Counted from the stretch's first letter, positions 3,766-59,571 are shown. The stretch: 64,000 bases of DNA from Prochlorococcus marinus str. MIT 9211 (GCF_000018585.1 NC_009976.1:615982-679981), one strand, 5' to 3'. Made by a program: numbers and translations. The notes: generated from the sequence alone by a model not told the origin.

Positions 3766-4230
3766 TTAAAAACAATATTTTTTTAAAGCAGCTATTACTT
3801 TTCTGGGCTGGTCTTCAATTAAGTAGGCTTCGTATTCTTTCTCTAGGTTTCCTGTTAGCTTAACCGAACCTTTTAATGCCCCTAGCTTTTGTTCACTGAT
3901 TTTTGCGTTCTTCTTGTTTTTAAGATTAAGCAAATTGCCATTATTACACTCTTGAGCTACATGGACAGATTCGTGCCTTATGGCTCTCCTTATCATTAGC
4001 CCTGTCTTGTAGTCGTCCTGATAGCCTATGCTTCTTGATAAATTATATCCACCATGACTTTTCGCGTTCTCTGTACAAATAACTATTCTTTTTTGATCTT
4101 TCTTTAGGAAGCCAAAGTACTTTTCTCCTAAAAGACATAAAGGAGTATTTTCTTCTACTGAATAGTTGGCTTTATATACTAACTCTAGAATTTCTTTTTC
4201 TTGAGAACCTAGAAATAGAAGAAATTCCAT
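3766..4230 (-). CDS. Hypothetical protein with HExxH motif
   Basis: Not recognised as a named family. The 154-residue protein is soluble, lysine-rich and has no signal peptide. The notable element is HESVH near residue 89 (in AIRHESVHVAQECNNG), matching the HExxH zinc-binding motif of metallopeptidases (zincins). It is followed by VAQECNNG and, about 40 residues later, by YEAYLIED, which could supply a third ligand. This suggests a small zincin-like protein, but the motif is short and can occur by chance. It lies between dnaG (convergent) and umuC (same strand, 71-bp gap). Confidence 0.6.
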   Translation of the reverse strand: MEFLLFLGSQEKEILELVYKANYSVEENTPLCLLGEKYFGFLKKDQKRIVICTENAKSHGGYNLSRSIGYQDDYKTGLMIRRAIRHESVHVAQECNNGNLLNLKNKKNAKISEQKLGALKGSVKLTGNLEKEYEAYLIEDQPRKVIAALKKYCF

Positions 4231-4301
4231 TACTTTCTTGTGATACTAACTAGTAGTTAAGAAGAATTATTTGCAAATTATACGTCTTCGTCTTCCAGAG
4301 C

Positions 4302-5570
4302 TTATACTTTTACAGTGGGAATGTCTGTTAGGCGTGTTGTTGCAGCCGGACTTAGATGATTACGATGCATTCTCCAAGTTTGGTTTGTTCCACATACAGC
4401 CCATTTTATTGTGTCATTGCCGTAGCGTTTGTTGAGATTATCGATTGTTTGCATTAGTCGTTCGCGTTGGTGTGTCTTTTCTGGATTAAATGTTTCAAGG
4501 AGATTTAGTTGTAGATGTTCGCTGTCTACGAGGTCTTGCATTATAACCCCTGCCTTTACTAGTAGACGATGAGGGCGGAATATACGCTTTGTTAAATCAA
4601 GTGAGTTTGCGAGCAGTATGGATGTATCATTGCTATGTACACTAAGGCGTTTAGTTGCTGCTTGGCTATAAAAATATGGTGTATAGGCACTTGTACGCGT
4701 GAAAACAGTGATAGCGCCAGCCCGTTGTTGTTGCATTCTTAGCTTCTCGCTTGCTTTCACAACGTATGTTGATATTGCCTGACGTAATTCTTCGATAGTA
4801 CTTATCGGCCTTTTAAAGCTTCTACTAATACAAGTCTCTTGTTTCGCTGCTGGTTTAGTTGATAGAGGTAAACAAGTAATCCCTTGCAATTCGTTCTGTA
4901 GACGTATGCCTGTAACCCCAAATTTTGATCTCACTTCATTACTTGGCATGTTAAGAAATTGTTTGGCATTTGTGATGCCTCGTATACGGCACCAGCGGGC
5001 TAATTTTCGGCCAATACCCCAAACATTTTCTATGGCAATGTTTTCAAGACATGCTTCTGGACTTTTAGCCTTCTCTAGGTCAAAGATACCCGCATGGTGG
5101 GAGGCTGTTTTGGCTAAGTAATTGGCGAGTTTGGCTTGGCTTTTGCTTGCACCGATGCCAATTGCAATTGGTAGGCCAAGACTTTTGTAAATAGATGCTC
5201 GTAATTGACGTGCCCAAGGATGAAGACTTTGGTCAGGAGGACGGTTGATTTTGGCAAATGCTTCGTCAATTGAATAGATTTCCAAATCCTCGCAATGCAT
5301 TGTAAGTAGGCTCATTAGGCGATGACTCATGTCGCCGTATAGTGCGTAGTTCGAACTGCGCACTTCGACATCAAGCCTATTTAGTTCATGACGTATTTTG
5401 AAATAGGGTGCCCCCATTAAGACCCCAAGACGACGAGCTTTGGCATTTCTTGCTATGACGCACCCATCATTGTTGGATAGGACCACCAAGGGGCGACCAG
5501 TCAGTTTAGGGTCAATAGCTTCCTCGCAGGCTGCGTAAAAGTTATTGCCATCAATCAATGCTATGGACAT
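4302..5570 (-). CDS. umuC: Y-family DNA polymerase V catalytic subunit UmuC
   Basis: Translesion DNA polymerase that copies damaged template with UmuD' as partner. The 422-residue length is as in other UmuC proteins. Catalytic acidic motifs are visible: LIDGNNFYAACE at residues 5-16 and YSIDEAF near residue 100. The helix-hairpin-helix region is ENVWGIGRKLARW near residue 185. The palm, thumb and little-finger region (PISTIEELRQAI, ITVFTRTSAY) follow in order. The start ATG lies 3 bp after the umuD stop, so the two form an operon, umuD first. Control is expected through the palindrome ahead of umuD. Confidence 0.96.
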   Translation of the reverse strand: MSIALIDGNNFYAACEEAIDPKLTGRPLVVLSNNDGCVIARNAKARRLGVLMGAPYFKIRHELNRLDVEVRSSNYALYGDMSHRLMSLLTMHCEDLEIYSIDEAFAKINRPPDQSLHPWARQLRASIYKSLGLPIAIGIGASKSQAKLANYLAKTASHHAGIFDLEKAKSPEACLENIAIENVWGIGRKLARWCRIRGITNAKQFLNMPSNEVRSKFGVTGIRLQNELQGITCLPLSTKPAAKQETCISRSFKRPISTIEELRQAISTYVVKASEKLRMQQQRAGAITVFTRTSAYTPYFYSQAATKRLSVHSNDTSILLANSLDLTKRIFRPHRLLVKAGVIMQDLVDSEHLQLNLLETFNPEKTHQRERLMQTIDNLNKRYGNDTIKWAVCGTNQTWRMHRNHLSPAATTRLTDIPTVKV

Positions 5571-5573
5571 GAA

Positions 5574-6035
5574 TTATAACGACTGAGTAGTACGTGTGAG
5601 CTTGTGAATGGAATATATGGCGACCCCCCAAATTTGAACATTGTCATAATGACGCATGTCAATTGCTGGGTAGTTAGGGTGCTCTGCTTCTAGGTAAAGT
5701 GTTTCTTTATGACGAGTCAGCCTTTTTAGCGTAAAGCACCCATCTAGTATTGCCACTACTATGCATCCCGGCTGAGCATCTAGGCTGCGATCTACTATTA
5801 AAAGGTCTCCGTTCTGAATGCCTGCATTAGTCATGGAGAAACCCTTTACTTTCAGGAAAAAGGTGCTTGCTGGGTGGAGAATTAGATGTTCATTCAGATC
5901 AATCCCCGCATCAATGTAGTCATCAGCAGGAGAGGGAAAACCTGCTGCCACGCATTCATTTGCTAAAGGAAGAAATAGTTGTATAGGTTTGACATGAGGA
6001 GGTACTGGTACTTGAGGGAAATTCACAAGAAACAT
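5574..6035 (-). CDS. umuD: UmuD, S24-family self-cleaving mutagenesis protein
   Basis: UmuD is cut on RecA filaments to UmuD', which joins UmuC to form polymerase V. The 153-residue protein shows the cleavage site Ala31-Gly32 followed by FPSPADDY, the catalytic serine (Ser67 in GFSMTNAG) and the catalytic lysine (Lys104 in FTLKRL). GDLLIVDR lies between them, as expected in LexA/UmuD-type peptidases. It is the first gene of the umuDC operon. Its start codon (6033-6035) lies inside one arm of a perfect 27-bp inverted repeat, so repressor binding would also cover the translation start. Confidence 0.96.
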   Translation of the reverse strand: MFLVNFPQVPVPPHVKPIQLFLPLANECVAAGFPSPADDYIDAGIDLNEHLILHPASTFFLKVKGFSMTNAGIQNGDLLIVDRSLDAQPGCIVVAILDGCFTLKRLTRHKETLYLEAEHPNYPAIDMRHYDNVQIWGVAIYSIHKLTRTTQSL

Positions 6036-6090
6036 TTACTTAGTACTAATAGTAGTATATCAGTACTACTATTAGTACTAAGTAAATGTT
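6031..6090. promoter_or_regulatory. Perfect 27-bp inverted repeat, probable LexA-type operator of umuDC
   Basis: Arms 6031-6057 and 6064-6090 are exact reverse complements separated by TATCAG. Each arm contains TAGTACTAAT, which agrees with the left part of the cyanobacterial LexA box as I remember it (TAGTACTAATGTTCTA), followed by AGTAGTA instead of GTTCTA. The location ahead of umuD, an SOS gene, supports an SOS operator. The arm length far exceeds a 16-bp LexA box, so the repeat could also form a hairpin or cruciform. The LexA assignment is inference. Confidence 0.65.
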
Positions 6091-6208
6091 GAGTATGGCT
6101 CCTTATGGACCTTTAGAAGATAGCGGCAATTTTTTATTTAGAGCTTTAATTGCGATGATAGGAGCCGCCTTCGCAAATATTCTTTGCGCGATAGAGTTGC
6201 TCTATTAG
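6086..6208 (+). CDS. Possible 40-residue hydrophobic small protein divergent from umuD
   Basis: A short ORF beginning MLSMAPYGPLEDSG and continuing with a hydrophobic stretch (FLFRALIAMIGAAFANILCA) that could span a membrane. Its ATG (6086-6088) is the mirror image of the umuD ATG in the 27-bp inverted repeat, so both would share the same upstream sequence. The last 63 bp overlap the 3' end of rlmH in antisense, which weakens the case. An internal ATG at codon 4 gives MAPYGPLEDSG. There is no recognised family and no clear Shine-Dalgarno sequence. It could be a chance ORF. Confidence 0.3.
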   Translation: MLSMAPYGPLEDSGNFLFRALIAMIGAAFANILCAIELLY

Positions 6209-6583
6209 TAAAAGGCGGGCTATCTCATGCGGAAAAGTGAGAGGTGAGAGGCTTATGCTCCAATTGGCCATGGCTTTGATTTCTGAATCAAGGCCATTGG
6301 CGCTACCAATTACAAAAAGGAGCCGGCTAGAACCTAGGCTTTTCAGGCGATTGGCAAAACCAAGAGAAGTTAGGCTTTCGCCTTCTTCTGTAAGAATGAT
6401 TAGTAATTCGTTAGTTTTAATTGAAGAGCGGATTGATTGAGCTTCTTTCTTAAGGTCGCTATCCTTTAGCTCTGTAATTGTTAATCCAGGGAGCCTTTTG
6501 ATGTAAAGATTCAGCCCATTTTGAATCCAGGCCTTCCTGGTTTTCCCTATGGCAAGTATTCGATATCGAGAGGGATTTAGCAA
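6146..6583 (-). CDS. rlmH: 23S rRNA (pseudouridine1915-N3)-methyltransferase RlmH
   Basis: A SPOUT-class methyltransferase that modifies pseudouridine 1915 in helix 69 of 23S rRNA on the 70S ribosome. The length is 145 residues. The SAM-binding trefoil knot is visible in LLFVIGSANGLD (about 87-98), followed by SISLSPLTFPHEIARLLLIEQLYRA, the strongly conserved RlmH C-terminal segment. The protein ends in the usual short basic/histidine tail (GGSYHRN). The N-terminal part is RYRILAIGKTRKAW. It is followed upstream on the same strand by the 118-residue hypothetical gene (29-bp gap). Confidence 0.95.
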   Translation of the reverse strand: MLNPSRYRILAIGKTRKAWIQNGLNLYIKRLPGLTITELKDSDLKKEAQSIRSSIKTNELLIILTEEGESLTSLGFANRLKSLGSSRLLFVIGSANGLDSEIKAMANWSISLSPLTFPHEIARLLLIEQLYRAKNICEGGSYHRN

Positions 6584-6612
6584 AATTAATTAGTTAAAAT
6601 TTTTTCGTTTAT

Positions 6613-6969
6613 CTACTCTTCTTCTAGAAGCAGTTGTTTGAAGGAAACATAGAGACTGTCGATTTGATCACTTTTATTGTTAATAGCTTCTTCTCTTTCT
6701 ATGGGGGTGTGCTTATTTTCATTACCTATAGATTTGCCTTCAATATTTTTTAAGCGAGTTATTAAATGCTTAGGTATTTTGCCATCAGGACTTGCCTTAA
6801 TAAGTTGCTTAAATAGTTCTTTGGGGTCTTCTTCCGTTTCAATGGGGTGCTGGGGTGAGTTGGAAGATTGTTTTGTGTTTAGCAGGGGTCTGTTGGGAGT
6901 TGGTATCTCTTTAGGAAGTTGGCGGCTTAATTCCCGGAGTCGTTCAAGGCTATTTGGGTCAAAACTCAT
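6613..6969 (-). CDS. Small acidic/polar hypothetical protein
   Basis: No named family is recognised. The 118-residue protein is soluble, rich in Glu, Lys, Pro and Asn, and probably partly disordered in the middle (PTPNRPLLNTKQSSNSPQHP). Short helical pieces occur at both ends (SLERLRELSRQLPKEI and SLYVSFKQLLLEEE). It shares a strand with rlmH and likely a transcript. The opposite-strand ORF covering the same bases (6677-7105) has a less natural composition and is treated as a shadow. It resembles the small conserved proteins often annotated as hypothetical in picocyanobacteria, but this is from general impression. Confidence 0.6.
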   Translation of the reverse strand: MSFDPNSLERLRELSRQLPKEIPTPNRPLLNTKQSSNSPQHPIETEEDPKELFKQLIKASPDGKIPKHLITRLKNIEGKSIGNENKHTPIEREEAINNKSDQIDSLYVSFKQLLLEEE

Positions 6970-53071: not shown

Positions 53072-53241
53072 TAAGTACTAATATTTAAATATTATAGGCT
53101 TGTAAATTTAGTAGGTTTAATCAAATTATAGTATCAGCACTATGATTATATTTGAAGAGTTTAGTTCTAAAGAGATCGAACCTAGAGGTTAAATTAGTCT
53201 ATAAATGTGCCATAATATTTTTAATCACTCTCTCAGCTCAT

Positions 53242-54339
53242 ATGGCAAGAAGAGTATTAATGATTACTTCCAGTTCCTCGGGAGGGGGGCCTAAGCAACT
53301 ATCTACTTTAACTGAACGTCTAAGCTCTGATTTTGTTATAAACGTTGCTTGTCCCAATAACAGTATATATTTAAATGATATTGAAGCAAGTATTTCTGGC
53401 AAGCTTCTTTTTATAAAAGAGAGAAAGATATCTTTTCTCGATATTTACAATATTATCAAATTTATCAAGCAAAATTCTATAGAACTGGTTCATTCGCATG
53501 GGAAGGCTGCTGGTCTCCTGGCAAGAATGGCTTTCTTTTTTACTAGGATCAAGTTGATTCACACTTATCATGGAGTACATCTAAGCAGATATAAGGTTAT
53601 ATTGAAAATATTATATGTAACATATGAAAGAATTTTCTCTATGATAAATACATACAATATCTTTGTTTCAATTTCAGAAATGAAGATGGCTAAAGACTCT
53701 AACATATTATTAAAAGATAAATCTGTTGTAATACCAAATGGAGTCCTAGATCAAGAATTAAAAGAGACTAAAACCAATTATATTAATAGGCTTCGTCAAT
53801 CTTTATCTATACCTACTAATATTACTGTAGCTATAACTTCTTGTAGGTTAGAACAGATAAAAAATTTATTTGAGCTCATAGATATAGCCCAAGCAAATAG
53901 TGATATCTTTTTTTATGTTATGGGAGAAGGACCATTGCGATCTGAACTTAATAGATATATTCGACTTCAGAAATTATCCAATATTATCTTATTAGGTCAT
54001 ATCACAAATGTTTTTGATTACCTCAACGCTTCAGATATTTATATCTCAACTTCACTTAGAGAGGGGCATCCTCTTTCTGTATTAGAGGCAATGTCAGTAG
54101 GCTTGCCTGTATTGGCCACAGCTGTTCCAGGGAATCTAGACACAATAATCCATGGAGATTCAGGCTTTTTCTATGAATTGGGAAATATAGAACAGGCTTC
54201 TTACTTTCTAAATAAACTATCAAGTAATAACAAATTAAGAAAGCAAATTGGAGCAAATGCTCAATGTATTCAGAAATTAAAATTTTCGGTTTCTGCTATG
54301 ACTAAAGCGTATGGTGATTTATATAAGTCAGTACAGTAA
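53242..54339 (+). CDS. Group 1 (GT4) glycosyltransferase
   Basis: I use the ATG at 53242 (365 residues); an upstream TTG frame from 53152 is an extension of doubtful use. The N-terminal part has ITSSSSGGGPKQLSTL, HSHGKAAGLLARMA and IHTYHGVHLSRYK as in GT-B retaining enzymes. The C-terminal Rossmann half has AITSCRLEQIKNLFELIDIAQ near 225, and STSLREGHPLSVLEAMSVGLPVLAT near 298 (EX7E motif). It transfers a sugar from a nucleotide donor to a lipid- or polymer-linked acceptor. It is likely a cell-surface polysaccharide gene, which the genes to the right support. Confidence 0.88.
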   Translation: MARRVLMITSSSSGGGPKQLSTLTERLSSDFVINVACPNNSIYLNDIEASISGKLLFIKERKISFLDIYNIIKFIKQNSIELVHSHGKAAGLLARMAFFFTRIKLIHTYHGVHLSRYKVILKILYVTYERIFSMINTYNIFVSISEMKMAKDSNILLKDKSVVIPNGVLDQELKETKTNYINRLRQSLSIPTNITVAITSCRLEQIKNLFELIDIAQANSDIFFYVMGEGPLRSELNRYIRLQKLSNIILLGHITNVFDYLNASDIYISTSLREGHPLSVLEAMSVGLPVLATAVPGNLDTIIHGDSGFFYELGNIEQASYFLNKLSSNNKLRKQIGANAQCIQKLKFSVSAMTKAYGDLYKSVQ

Positions 54340-54570
54340 AAATGTTTATGTGATATCTATCAATATGCATTTAGTTATGAGCAAAATAGAGACTCTTGAG
54401 AAAATATTGTATACAAGCTCATAATAGTCTTTTCGCAAACTTTCTTCTATTGCTTATTTTATTTTATTGGTAAATAACCTTATAGGATAGTTTTTCAGAC
54501 CAACTATAGCTTTGAGCTAGTGCGATTATAAATTAATGAGTTGAGTAGGGTGAGATCCTAATTATTTAAA

Positions 54571-54655
54571 CGGAGGGGGTGGGATTCGAACCCACGGATG
54601 CTCTCACATCGCTGGTTTTCAAGACCAGAGCCATCAACCACTCGACCACCCCTCC
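54571..54655 (-). tRNA. trnS-TGA: tRNA-Ser (anticodon TGA)
   Basis: On the minus strand the 85-base sequence has acceptor GGAGGGG paired to CCCCTCC plus discriminator G, a D arm, the anticodon stem-loop CTGGT-CTTGAAA-ACCAG with anticodon TGA, a long variable arm as in serine tRNAs (GATGTGAGAGCATC), and the T arm GTGGG-TTCGAAT-CCCAC. CCA is not encoded. It lies between the glycosyltransferase and the DUF4956-CotH-VTC block, a typical integration target. Confidence 0.95.
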
Positions 54656-54814
54656 AAATTTAGACAGATTGCTCTGCAACTTACATACTAGCAACCCGTA
54701 GCCAAACCAATGAATTGATTTGAAGAAGGTTTTTGGACTTATTTCCAGATTTCATAAACAAAGAAGTTATAATTGGATTAATTGGGGTCTCACGGTAGAC
54801 TCAAAGAGATTCAC

Positions 54815-55504
54815 ATGAACAAAGACCTTCCTTTTCAAGAGTTTTTAGCTAATTCACCACAACAACAAAGCATAGAGATTTTTGCTATTAATATTTTGAT
54901 AGCGTTTATTTTATCAAGTTTACTAGGTTACATCTATACAAAGTATGGAAATAGTCTTTCTAATAGAAGGTCCTTTGCGCAGAATTTTAATATGATATCA
55001 ATGACTACAATGCTAATAATTTCAATAGTCAAGTCATCTTTGGCTTTATCTTTAGGATTGGTTGGTGCATTATCAATAGTAAGATTTAGGACAGCATTGA
55101 AGGAGCCAGAAGAATTAGCCTTTACATTCTTGTGTATAGCAATTGGTTTAGGCCTAGGAGCAAATCAAAGGTTAATTTCAATAGTAGGATTTCTAATTAT
55201 CACTGGTCTGTATATAGTTAAAAGTAAAGCTATAAAGTCAAGAGACCAACAAAGTGTAAATCTTATAATTACATCACAGGAGCCAAGCTCAACAGATTCA
55301 GAACAAATAATTGATTTGCTAAGGACAAACTCTGACTCCTTAGATCTAAAAAGATTAACAGAAGATAACTCAATACTTGAGATCGCACTTTGTATTGAAA
55401 TTGATAACTATAAGAAATTAATATATATAAAGGATAAATTAAGGCTCAAATTCCCTTCTTTGTCGATCAATTTCATTGAGAATGGAACTCTATATGAAAA
55501 TTAA
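54815..55504 (+). CDS. DUF4956 membrane protein
   Basis: I use the ATG at 54815 (229 residues, MNKDLPFQEFL), with an upstream AAAGAG-like site; an in-frame TTG at 54782 would add 11. Hydrophobic helices lie at about 20-40, 70-88 and 95-135. The family signature is SLGLVGALSIVRFRTALKEPEELAFTFLCIAIGLGLGAN near 88-126. The C-terminal 80 residues are soluble and alpha/beta. DUF4956 is a partner family of the VTC/CotH group, of unknown role. It is the first gene of the set. Confidence 0.88.
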   Translation: MNKDLPFQEFLANSPQQQSIEIFAINILIAFILSSLLGYIYTKYGNSLSNRRSFAQNFNMISMTTMLIISIVKSSLALSLGLVGALSIVRFRTALKEPEELAFTFLCIAIGLGLGANQRLISIVGFLIITGLYIVKSKAIKSRDQQSVNLIITSQEPSSTDSEQIIDLLRTNSDSLDLKRLTEDNSILEIALCIEIDNYKKLIYIKDKLRLKFPSLSINFIENGTLYEN

Positions 55505-55515
55505 GGTGAATTGAT

Positions 55516-58134
55516 ATGAAAGTAAAGTATCTGAGCAGTAAGAATATCCTGGCAAAATATAGCCTTTACCTTAAGAGTAAATTGAACAGGAATAGAAAGC
55601 TTTTATATTTTTTAAGTATCCCATTACTTTCTCCTATCTTTATATTTGGAACTACAAATATTTCTACGTCTTGTAAGGAGTTGGAATTTAGCCCGTTGGC
55701 CTGTTTAAAATCTATATATACTTATAGGAAAGCAGAAGTACTTGAACTTGACATTAAGTTTCTAGATTATAAGAAATTAGAGTTCAAACGCAATAATGCA
55801 TTAGAAAAGGGAGTACTTCAAACAGAAGAAGGGGACTACGTAGATGCAATAATTAAATATGATGATAAAGACTATAATGTTAGGATCAGACTAAAAGGTG
55901 ATAGGGTAGACCATTTTGATGGAAAGAAATGGTCATTTAGAGTGAAAGTAAGAGATGGTAAAAGATTATTTGGAATGAAGAAATTTTCACTGCAAACACC
56001 TAATACTAGAAGGTATATCAATGAATGGACTTATCATAAATTGCTTAAAGATGAAGGTGTTCCATCGCTTAGATATAAATTTGTCTCATTAAGGTTAAAT
56101 GGAGAGGACTATGGAGTTTATTCAATTGAAGAACACTTTGACAAAATATTAATTGAAAACAACAGATTTAAGGAGGGACCTATCATAAGTATGTCAGAAG
56201 CAATTTTTTGGGAGAATAAACTAAGATATAAAGATCTAGAATCGAAATACCCACTTTATAAAGGAGAAGGTGCTTCAGCGTATTCAGCCTACGATGATAG
56301 CCAGTATAGAAGTGAGCCAATAGCGTTTCAAGAGAACTATATCTTAAAAGACCAGCTCTTAAGCAATCAATTTAAAAAGGGATCTCAATTGTTAGAAGGA
56401 TTTCTCAAGGGCTATTTAACGACATCAGAAGCTTTTGATATCGAAACCTTGGCTGCATATTTAGCCTTAAGTGATCTTGCGAATGGACATCATGGAGACC
56501 ATTGGATTAATTTAAGATTCTATTACAACCCTATTTCAAGCAAACTATTACCTGTAGGTTTTGACTCTATACCAGATAATAAATCAATTTCCAAACTATT
56601 AATAGAAAGAAATCAGACTTTAGATTTCTTTATGGATCCAGAACTAGTAAAAAAATATATATATTATTTAGATAAAGTATCAAGCCCTGATTATTTATAT
56701 GATTTCCTTCTTAAAAATAATAATGAATATCAATTTAACCTTAAGCTTTTACGCTATTCATTCCCCTTTGATAGAAGAGTTAAAGACTTCACTGAATTAT
56801 TAAAACTAAATAGTGAGATTATTCGTAAGAAGCTTAACCCTACTACTCCATTAAATTCTTATTTACAAAGAATAGATGAAAAAGAAGTTGTTATTTCAAT
56901 TGGTAATAAACAAAGACTTCCATTAGAGATTTTGGGGATTGATTACTTAGGTTCCAATCCTTATGTCTTAAGCAATCCATATTTAATAGCAGGAAAAGAG
57001 TATGAATCCTATGTAAAATATAACCAACTTACTATTCCTTCAATAGAGAAAATACCTGATTTTAAGAATTTGGATTATAACAAACTAAGAGTTAAGTATA
57101 GACTTTTAGGAGCTAATCAATCTAATTTCATTAAATTAAAACCATATAATAGGTTTGAGGATGACAAGTCCCTAACAGATATTATGCGTCGGTCAAGTAA
57201 TATAGAAGACTTCAATTTCCTAAGTATAGATAACTCAGCTAAAAGGATTACTATCAAGCCAGGAAGTTGGGTTTTATCAAAACCAATGATAATACCAAAA
57301 GGTTTTACCTTTGCAGCAAAACCTGGAGTAAACCTCATATTAAAAGATAAAGCTACTATTATTTCGCGAAGCCCAATACTTTTTCTTGGCAATTCAACTA
57401 ATCCTATAAATATAAGCGCAGAGTCAGAGGGACAAGGTATTTTTATTTTAGAAGCTAATCAAATGTCGAAGGTTCAATTCGTCAACTTCACTCGACTCTC
57501 AAGTCCCCAAGACGAACATTGGGGATTAACAGGCGCAATAACATTCTATAAATCTCCTGTTAGCATTAAATCTTGTCTTTTATCTGACTTTCAAGCAGAG
57601 GATGCTTTGAATATAGTTAAGTCGCAATTTACTATTGAAGATACACAGTTTATCAACTCAAAATCAGATTCGCTAGATGTTGATTTTTCAAATGGCATCA
57701 TAGAAAATACATATGTTCTTACCTCTGGCAATGACGGACTGGATTTTTCTGGAAGTACCGTAACTTTAAAATCTATCTTCATTGATAGAGCAGGAGACAA
57801 AGCAATCAGTATTGGAGAGGAGAGTAATATTACTGGTAATAATGTATTGATTAAAAATTCCGCAATAGGCTTTGCAAGTAAAGATAAATCTATTGCTAAA
57901 CTAGAGTCAGTAGATATTAGTAATAGTGATCTTGGGTTCGCTGTTTTTCAGAAAAAACCGGAGTATGGTCCTGGCTCTATATCTATCTCTAAAGCATCCT
58001 TTATTGATGTAGATAAGCTTTTCTTGTTAGAGCCTAAATCTATTCTAGTGATTAATGGGACTAATTATGAATATAATGCTAACAATGTAGAGTCACTTTT
58101 ATATGGAGAGCAATATGGAAAGAAAAGTCAATAA
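55516..58134 (+). CDS. CotH-kinase-family protein with C-terminal beta-helix domain
   Basis: An 872-residue protein. An N-terminal membrane anchor (about 29-45) precedes a soluble part. The CotH-like kinase core lies at about 90-400, with RIRLKGDRVDHFDGKKWSFRVK near 116 and LQTPNTRRYINEWTYHKLLKDEGVPS near 154, and NGEDYGVYSIEEHFDKILIE near 195. ANGHHGDHWINLRFYYNPISSKLLPVGFDS near 319 resembles the metal and catalytic region. From about 590 to 840 there are repeated short turns (for example SLDVDFSNGIIENTYVLTSGNDGLDFSGSTVTLKS, read in pieces) typical of a right-handed parallel beta-helix. CotH proteins can phosphorylate secreted or cell-surface proteins. The 20-bp overlap with the next gene suggests coupling. 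Confidence 0.85.
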   Translation: MKVKYLSSKNILAKYSLYLKSKLNRNRKLLYFLSIPLLSPIFIFGTTNISTSCKELEFSPLACLKSIYTYRKAEVLELDIKFLDYKKLEFKRNNALEKGVLQTEEGDYVDAIIKYDDKDYNVRIRLKGDRVDHFDGKKWSFRVKVRDGKRLFGMKKFSLQTPNTRRYINEWTYHKLLKDEGVPSLRYKFVSLRLNGEDYGVYSIEEHFDKILIENNRFKEGPIISMSEAIFWENKLRYKDLESKYPLYKGEGASAYSAYDDSQYRSEPIAFQENYILKDQLLSNQFKKGSQLLEGFLKGYLTTSEAFDIETLAAYLALSDLANGHHGDHWINLRFYYNPISSKLLPVGFDSIPDNKSISKLLIERNQTLDFFMDPELVKKYIYYLDKVSSPDYLYDFLLKNNNEYQFNLKLLRYSFPFDRRVKDFTELLKLNSEIIRKKLNPTTPLNSYLQRIDEKEVVISIGNKQRLPLEILGIDYLGSNPYVLSNPYLIAGKEYESYVKYNQLTIPSIEKIPDFKNLDYNKLRVKYRLLGANQSNFIKLKPYNRFEDDKSLTDIMRRSSNIEDFNFLSIDNSAKRITIKPGSWVLSKPMIIPKGFTFAAKPGVNLILKDKATIISRSPILFLGNSTNPINISAESEGQGIFILEANQMSKVQFVNFTRLSSPQDEHWGLTGAITFYKSPVSIKSCLLSDFQAEDALNIVKSQFTIEDTQFINSKSDSLDVDFSNGIIENTYVLTSGNDGLDFSGSTVTLKSIFIDRAGDKAISIGEESNITGNNVLIKNSAIGFASKDKSIAKLESVDISNSDLGFAVFQKKPEYGPGSISISKASFIDVDKLFLLEPKSILVINGTNYEYNANNVESLLYGEQYGKKSQ

Positions 58135-58831
58135 GGAAACTGTTTGGAGATATGAGAGAAAGTTTATAGTACCGAATATCATTTCATATAATATATCCAA
58201 TTTAATTAAGTCAACTCCACTATGCTTTTCTGAGATATATGCAAAGAGAGTTGTAAATAATATTTATTTAGACACACCGAATTACCAATTTTTTAAAGAG
58301 AATATTAATGGATTGTCCGAACGTAAGAAAGTTAGAATTAGATGGTACGGAGAAACCTTTGGTGATATCAACCCTAAATTAGAGATTAAATACAAATCAG
58401 GTAATGTAGGGACTAAGAAGACACTTCAAATATCTCCCTTTAATTTTCCAGATAGATCTTTGTCAGTTAATCCCTTTAGTCTTTCTGATAGTATCAGAAA
58501 TCTACCTTTAAATTACCATTGGATTAAGAGCTTAAGGGTATCCTTGTTGAATTCTTATGAAAGAAGCTATTATCTATCTTTCGATAAGATGTTTAGGATA
58601 ACAGTTGATAAGAACTTACTCTATTTCCCAACTTCTAATTCTATAAAGAATGATTTTAATTACTATCTTAAAGAAGATTCTACTATACTAGAGTTAAAAT
58701 ATTTGAAACAATCAGATCTAGACGCTGATTTGATTACAAACTATTTTCCATTTCGTATGACTAGGAATTCTAAATATGTCAACGGCATAAGACTGATACA
58801 CTCTCTCCACTCAAGAAAACAACGCTATTAA
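58115..58831 (+). CDS. VTC domain protein (polyphosphate polymerase-like)
   Basis: I use the ATG at 58115 (238 residues), preceded by GGAG six bases before; a second ATG at 58103 is possible. The protein matches the VTC catalytic domain (triphosphate tunnel metalloenzyme type). It has WRYERKFIVPN near residue 12, VVNNIYLDTPNYQFF near 47, the basic RKKVRIRWYGE near 70, and LEIKYKSGNVGTKK near 88. LELKYLKQSDLDADLI near the end carries the acidic metal ligands. In yeast Vtc4 this fold makes polyphosphate from ATP. The combination with CotH and DUF4956 suggests phosphate-rich surface modification. Confidence 0.87.
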   Translation: MERKVNKETVWRYERKFIVPNIISYNISNLIKSTPLCFSEIYAKRVVNNIYLDTPNYQFFKENINGLSERKKVRIRWYGETFGDINPKLEIKYKSGNVGTKKTLQISPFNFPDRSLSVNPFSLSDSIRNLPLNYHWIKSLRVSLLNSYERSYYLSFDKMFRITVDKNLLYFPTSNSIKNDFNYYLKEDSTILELKYLKQSDLDADLITNYFPFRMTRNSKYVNGIRLIHSLHSRKQRY

Positions 58832-59075
58832 TTTATATATAGGGAAATGGGCTATTTTCGATTCTCTTTTCTTAGTCTTGTTCCCTTTGCCTGGGGGGTG
58901 GGTAAGTAGGTCATATCTTCCTTAGAAGGAACAATTAATGATCCTCCACAAATTTAATATGCATTTCTTTATCTAGTTATAGGGTTTTTTAATAAAAAGA
59001 TTTCAGCGAACCCGGAAAATGGGTAGAACCGTTTGTTTTGTGCCATAATCCGCTTCAACGACTCGTGTTTTTTTC

Positions 59076-59270
59076 ATGGCAAGTTCCAAGAGTGATCAGT
59101 CTCGTTTCTTAGGCGATTTACCAATGGGAGGTGAAATATCTGAGAAGGAGAAAATTCGTTATATCTCTCACCTCATGTTCTTTATAGGCTGTGCTCTATT
59201 TTCCTTCGGGATATGGGCCTTAACAGGCTTTACTTCCTCTACTGGAGCCTCTGGACCTTTCCCTTTCTAA
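59076..59270 (+). CDS. Small membrane hypothetical protein
   Basis: A 64-residue protein with a polar first 30 residues (SSKSDQSRFLGDLPMGGEIS) and one hydrophobic helix (about 31-50, HLMFFIGCALFSFGIWALTG), ending FPF. The start is ATG at 59076 after a T-run and no clear Shine-Dalgarno site. No family is recognised. It is on the + strand just beyond the VTC set, 244 bp downstream. Confidence 0.5.
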   Translation: MASSKSDQSRFLGDLPMGGEISEKEKIRYISHLMFFIGCALFSFGIWALTGFTSSTGASGPFPF

Positions 59271-59304: not shown

Positions 59305-59571
59305 TTATCCAATACTTAAGTGTTCTATCTTATCGTCTCGGTGTTTAATTAGTGCTTCGAACCATTTAGAAGCAGTAGCTCTTGATATAGATCTATTCCT
59401 AAGGAGTTCTGCAATAACCGAATAAAGTCGAAATTCTTTTACAGTTGAATTGAACCAACGTTCAAATTCAACGATCTCTTCGGTTGTATGGCAAGCTCTT
59501 AATTGATCAATGATGGCGTCGTGGGTACCTTTATCCATAATCTCAAATGTCTTTTGAGCAGTTGTAGTCAT
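59305..59571 (-). CDS. Small soluble hypothetical protein
   Basis: An 88-residue soluble helical protein (MDKGTHDAIIDQLRACHTTEEIVEFERWFN, then ELLRNRSISRATASKWFEALIKHRDDKI, read in pieces). The SISRATASKWFEAL part has a helix-turn-helix flavour but no family is recognised. Composition is normal. It is on the minus strand 34 bp from the previous gene and lies downstream of nrdJ (177-bp gap). Confidence 0.5.
   Translation of the reverse strand: MTTTAQKTFEIMDKGTHDAIIDQLRACHTTEEIVEFERWFNSTVKEFRLYSVIAELLRNRSISRATASKWFEALIKHRDDKIEHLSIG

Follow-up and report, generated by a model that had tools for sequence, protein, structure and literature searches.

The window analysed here, a stretch of 64,000 nucleotides from the single-contig genome of Prochlorococcus marinus MIT 9211 (1,688,963 bases), contains three genes lying head to tail, which encode a DUF4956 membrane protein, a CotH-family protein and a VTC-type polyphosphate polymerase domain (Table 1). 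A first-pass annotation of the same DNA had placed the three genes at these positions, separated by a gap of 11 bases and joined by an overlap of 20 bases, respectively, and adjoining a gene for tRNA-Ser(TGA). All of this was borne out, as the three proteins score above their Pfam cut-offs and the tRNA is recognized by both ARAGORN and Rfam. The VTC gene is preceded by a GGAG ribosome-binding site 5' of its ATG. A search against NCBIfam assigned no names, and scans for promoters and terminators returned no more signals than in shuffled sequence.

Table 1. Features of the locus, with positions counted from the first base of the window.
Feature	Position	Strand	Basis or remark
GT4 gene	53152-54339		start best placed at ~53245
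tRNA-Ser(TGA)	54570..54656	-	ARAGORN; Rfam tRNA 55.2 bits
Inserted stretch, approximate ends	54664..59035	.	missing from congeneric L042, L043
DUF4956 protein	54815..55504	+	PF16316 59.7 bits, cut-off 30.6
CotH-family protein	55516..58134	+	PF08757 36.7 bits, cut-off 23.8
Predicted CotH membrane anchor, residues 29-47	55600..55656	+	hydropathy; basic stretch precedes
CotH kinase-like domain, residues 124-320	55885..56475	+	Pfam match
D350 (CotH Asp251 equivalent)	56563-56565	+	downstream of Pfam-matched kinase-like domain
Predicted right-handed beta-helix of CotH protein, residues about 560-863	57193..58104	+	AlphaFold2
VTC-type polyphosphate polymerase domain	58115..58831	+	PF09359 95.3 bits, cut-off 23

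The three genes form a set that recurs in related genomes. Among 300 genomes of the family, VTC was found in 16, the CotH beta-helix in 15 and DUF4956 in 16, and the complete trio, with its genes linked, in 14. As for the mismatches, a contig end cuts off one gene in each of G128 and G041, and the DUF4956 of G026 is a fragment. Since the genes fall in the same genomes and are linked, in the 14 complete cases and in two more cut by contig ends, their co-occurrence exceeds chance. The set is thus carried by about one in twenty related genomes, and also by a few Bacteroidota. The genomes of the VTC carriers all measure 1.3-1.9 Mb. The order of the genes varies, CotH being convergent in G031 and VTC coming first in G108. 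Two genomes hold two different trios each, G040 (L027 and L029) and G065 (L032 and L033), and those of G065 belong to distant parts of the VTC tree. A single-sequence search of genome contigs gave two relatives.

Beyond the family, VTC matches were obtained in 12 of the 386 genomes of a sample of the phylum and in 48 of the 296 genomes of a Bacteroidota sample. At the Bacteroidota loci that were read, the same two families, VTC and DUF4956, stand together in 20 out of 20, nearly always side by side and otherwise one to two genes from each other (two in L105). Unlike the cyanobacterial trio, many of these pairs lack CotH, and some are accompanied by canonical CotH-LTD proteins and by an HlyD-like adaptor protein. 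The adaptor lies next to VTC-DUF4956 at L101:9358-10449 and L102:7128-8192, hinting at envelope transport. When 58 VTC sequences were placed in a careful maximum-likelihood tree, 18 of the 19 rows of the Prochlorococcus family formed one clade with three Bacteroidota rows (support 100/99), separate from other Bacteroidota and other cyanobacteria, while the nineteenth, from G108, sits on a long branch of unsure placement. The MIT 9211 protein groups with those of G121, G010, Prochlorococcus AG-402-I23 and the three Bacteroidota (support 99/96). These Bacteroidota rows come from three separate genomes that agree, two from the Bacteroidota sample and one a Bacteroidales MAG.

The genomic context of the trio indicates that it was acquired. 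The insertion, of about 4.3 kb, lies between tRNA-Ser(TGA) and nrdJ and abuts the 5' end of the tRNA. In two genomes of the same genus (L042 and L043), the site is empty: they share with MIT 9211 the order pentapeptide protein, two hypothetical proteins, NmrA, a small ORF, GT4 and tRNA-Ser, followed by a 64-residue ORF, the gene at 59305 and nrdJ, and the trio is missing. The distance from the tRNA to the 64-residue ORF is about 140 bp in both, versus about 4.4 kb in MIT 9211. Because two congeners keep the gene order without the trio, the transfer that had been suggested as possible is supported, together with the presence of the set in 16 of 300 genomes and the grouping of its VTC with Bacteroidota; the trio was found not to occupy the same place in nearly all picocyanobacteria. 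The 64-residue ORF (59076-59270, MASSKSDQSRFLGDLP...), which is unlisted and conserved in relatives, delimits the insert on its right side, and a conserved stretch, GTGCCATAATC, lies upstream of it. The insert has a GC content of 31.6%, compared with 36.9% for the rest of the window, and is poorer in GC than each of 102 equally long samples from other parts of the window (z -2.5). By itself this proves little, given that the ancestral GT4 gene is similarly low (31.9%). The GT4 gene does flank the tRNA on its other side, as described before, but it does not belong to the block: congeners without the trio have it at the same place, so that it was rejected as a fourth member and is regarded as an ancestral flank.

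The association with the tRNA gene is supported, as tRNA-Ser lies at the edge of the insert, but neither a recombinase nor a flanking tRNA repeat was found beside the trio, including by a DNA search with the tRNA, and a mobile element at this place was rejected. Judged by the criteria for tycheposons, the tRNA-linked cargo elements of Prochlorococcus (PMC10872708), the insert has a tRNA gene at its edge and carries no tyrosine recombinase; the PF00589 matches fall at 38, 361 and 493 kb, versus 671-675 kb for the insert. Carriage by phages or plasmids was likewise rejected, as collections of neither gave a match. Of the 18 trio loci, 4 have a tRNA no more than 1 kb away versus an expected ~5%, a chance of about 0.01 by a rough estimate with an assumed number of tRNAs. 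In some relatives the tRNA-Ser-nrdJ junction holds 0.8-0.9 kb; in G003 it spans about 12.8 kb, and in G031 and G121 41-43 kb, which identifies it as a hotspot. In the last three genomes (L049-L055), other genes fill the ~13 to 43 kb of the junction. Near the intact gene in L056 (G210, ~4163-6747), tRNA-Ser recurs as several partial copies, likely traces of past integrations. The low GC content and the lack of adjoining mobility genes would also suit a decaying remnant, functionless in MIT 9211; with all three reading frames open and the invariant residues intact, this is very improbable.

The CotH-family protein combines an N-terminal membrane anchor, a divergent kinase domain and a C-terminal beta-helix, the latter matching PF12708 with 25.2 bits in the context of the whole protein and with 27.4 bits, against a cut-off of 27, as a domain alone. 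As the predicted anchor follows a basic stretch, the remainder of the protein should lie outside the cytoplasm. Two homologues (L040 and L038) bear lipoprotein-like N-terminal signals ending in cysteine. The kinase-like domain is matched by PF08757 in 15 of the 18 family members, and its only convincing sequence relatives in the PDB are the Bacillus CotH kinase structures 5jd9 and 5jda (profile match to 5jd9, the B. cereus protein, E 1.2e-15). CotH from B. subtilis is inactive as D228Q or D251A (PMC7821199). Both residues were located in 5jd9 by the 23-residue spacing of two aspartates. The equivalent of Asp251 (D350) is kept in 18 of 18 sequences, as in Bacillus. The column of Asp228, in contrast, never holds Asp in the 18 and is mostly His, even though 5jd9 and four canonical CotH proteins from Bacteroidota have Asp. 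The protein from MIT 9211 has an Asp two residues past this column, which the alignment places elsewhere through a short shift, and a displaced Asp228 is possible in this one sequence. Unlike the Bacillus enzyme, the protein has Asp228 replaced, and a membrane anchor and a beta-helix added. The earlier proposal of an enzymatic system holds for VTC, whose active-site residues are kept, but fails in part for CotH, in which only one of the two known catalytic aspartates is left; kinase activity is doubtful for this reason. The AlphaFold2 model of the domain, built on an alignment of three sequences, is too poor to judge the active site.

These data bear on a possible extracytoplasmic protein kinase module, in which CotH would phosphorylate surface proteins like the spore CotH, while VTC and DUF4956 would regulate the reaction or provide its phosphate. 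The CotH fold detected by profile and the invariant Asp251 equivalent agree with such a module, whereas the loss of Asp228 and the distribution of invariant residues, 7 of 374 in the kinase part versus 19 of 306 in the beta-helix, make it unlikely.

By this count, the beta-helix is the most conserved part of the CotH protein, under more constraint than the kinase part. Its AlphaFold2 model (pLDDT mostly 80-97) finds its best structural match in AlgG, an alginate epimerase of the periplasm (Z 26.6 over 269 residues, rmsd 2.5), and also superposes well on polygalacturonases, with Z values of 22-27 across AlgG/AlgE and GH28. The 19 invariant residues recur at steps of 22 residues, on the same strand of successive turns, a pattern that, in the predicted fold, would correspond to a binding or active-site strip. 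The likeness to the mannuronan C5-epimerases AlgG/AlgE and the GH28 polygalacturonases is one of predicted fold, at 10-16% identity. No PDB match to the beta-helix was found by sequence, and its likening to GH28 motifs, which no sequence alignment supports, is taken as a lead. The fold occurs in non-enzymatic proteins too, and the model resembles phage tailspikes as well as epimerases. Such resemblance, together with the sporadic presence of the trio, its islands beside tRNAs, the high divergence between copies and the transfer across phyla, would be compatible with a surface-altering cassette kept mainly for changed recognition by phages or grazers, whichever its chemistry; with no match among phage or plasmid collections, this is rather improbable.

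The VTC protein has no membrane segment by hydropathy and keeps 20 invariant residues. It matches yeast Vtc4 (3g3q) by profile (1.2e-10), and its R74 and R76, shared by all 20 sequences compared, align with R264 and R266 of Vtc4, two residues that synthesis in yeast requires (PMC8749416). This active-site conservation suggests a polyphosphate polymerase using ATP. In contrast to the yeast VTC complex, the MIT 9211 protein lacks SPX and a membrane domain of its own, and its membrane partner would be DUF4956. The latter consists of hydrophobic helices followed by a beta-alpha-beta-beta-alpha-beta domain of the ACT/PII-like type, according to hydropathy and an AlphaFold2 model of middling confidence (pLDDT 66). 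In this model, the C-terminal domain is matched by Foldseek to the ACT domain 3ibw and to ACT and PII-like structures; searched by sequence, DUF4956 gave only chance-level matches in the PDB. MIT 9211 already has an ordinary polyphosphate kinase (PPK1), separate from the trio, which the trio would supplement if VTC, with its intact active site, simply raised the polyphosphate capacity in phosphate-poor water and CotH were a passenger. Such a phosphate store is quite unlikely, considering that CotH with its beta-helix is linked as tightly as VTC and that the beta-helix is under strong constraint, unlike a passenger.

The genes near other trios include a UDP-sugar dehydrogenase, sugar epimerases, glycosyltransferases, a polysaccharide export protein, and MBOAT and AT3/SGNH acyltransferases. 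Genes of this type generally abound in the genomic islands of these bacteria, so that these neighbours are only suggestive of a surface-polymer role. In MIT 9211, no polysaccharide gene belongs to the insert. A calcineurin-like phosphoesterase adjoins the trio on the same strand at four loci (L023:9976-10854, L026:13537-14625, L029:3967-5905 and L037:8225-9139), those of L023, L029 and L037 being homologous to one another, and could possibly be a fourth member.

The closest known counterpart of the trio is the set of CotH, polyphosphate polymerase and DUF4956 genes found beside Gram-positive pel operons (PMC7112168). In Streptococcus intermedius, the equivalent set at the Pel locus is SIR_1592-1594, where SIR_1592 has four membrane segments and an ACT domain and SIR_1594 is a secreted CotH protein (PMC12345266). 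More Pel was formed when the DUF4956-type gene was deleted and less when the CotH gene was, and in one medium aggregation dropped by over half in either mutant. No phenotype was reported for deletion of the VTC-type gene (PMC12345266). These phenotypes fit the tuning or modifying of a polymer, not its making. The same study, from 2025, did not find the three-gene synteny outside the Pel locus (PMC12345266); the loci described here are counterexamples to such a limit. The same three families are contiguous in both settings, but the trio of the MIT 9211 type carries a C-terminal beta-helix instead of FN3, has a changed kinase site and lacks PelG. A search for PelG in 16 trio genomes found it in none (0/16); on this ground a Pel context was rejected and the trio is considered an independent module. 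No description of the set in cyanobacteria was found in the open-access literature.

The best reading of the trio is that of an accessory building or modifying a phosphate-linked surface polymer. Specifically, it may be a module of the envelope, gained by transfer, in which polyphosphate synthesis on the cytoplasmic side is coupled to changes made to a surface polymer on the outside, a proposal for which our confidence is evenly balanced. VTC, predicted to be soluble and cytoplasmic, would polymerise phosphate from ATP. DUF4956, with its predicted cytoplasmic ACT-like domain, would dock VTC and either pass on its product or regulate it, a role suggested by the constant pairing of the two. The anchored CotH protein would act outside on a polysaccharide through its beta-helix, and its divergent kinase domain might bind or transfer phosphate. 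In favour of this module are the observed linkage, the VTC arginines, the predicted CotH anchor, the AlgG-like helix of the model, the VTC-DUF4956 pairs of Bacteroidota, the genes near other trios, including the phosphoesterase, and the S. intermedius deletions. Against it stand the silent VTC-type deletion, the loss of Asp228, the existing PPK, the lack of a polysaccharide gene in the insert and the occurrence of the beta-helix fold in non-enzymatic proteins. The surface product put forward in the first-pass annotation, still putative, gains backing from the predicted topology, the beta-helix fold and the neighbours elsewhere. A more daring and improbable version has the polyphosphate made by VTC crossing the membrane via DUF4956, and the CotH-like domain, its metal site altered, drawing on polyphosphate rather than ATP for the phosphorylation of a polysaccharide that the beta-helix holds. 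If true, this would allow polymers to be phosphorylated in the extracellular space, which contains no ATP.

Regardless of its chemistry, the set extends beyond Gram-positive pel loci, standing on its own in Bacteroidota and in streamlined bacteria that live by photosynthesis, which separates its core role from Pel. The filled and empty sites constitute a clean natural pair for a cassette at a tRNA hotspot. Unlike the sets of pel loci, the trio has a beta-helix fused to a CotH domain with a lost catalytic residue, and it points to a surface chemistry amenable to tests on purified proteins.
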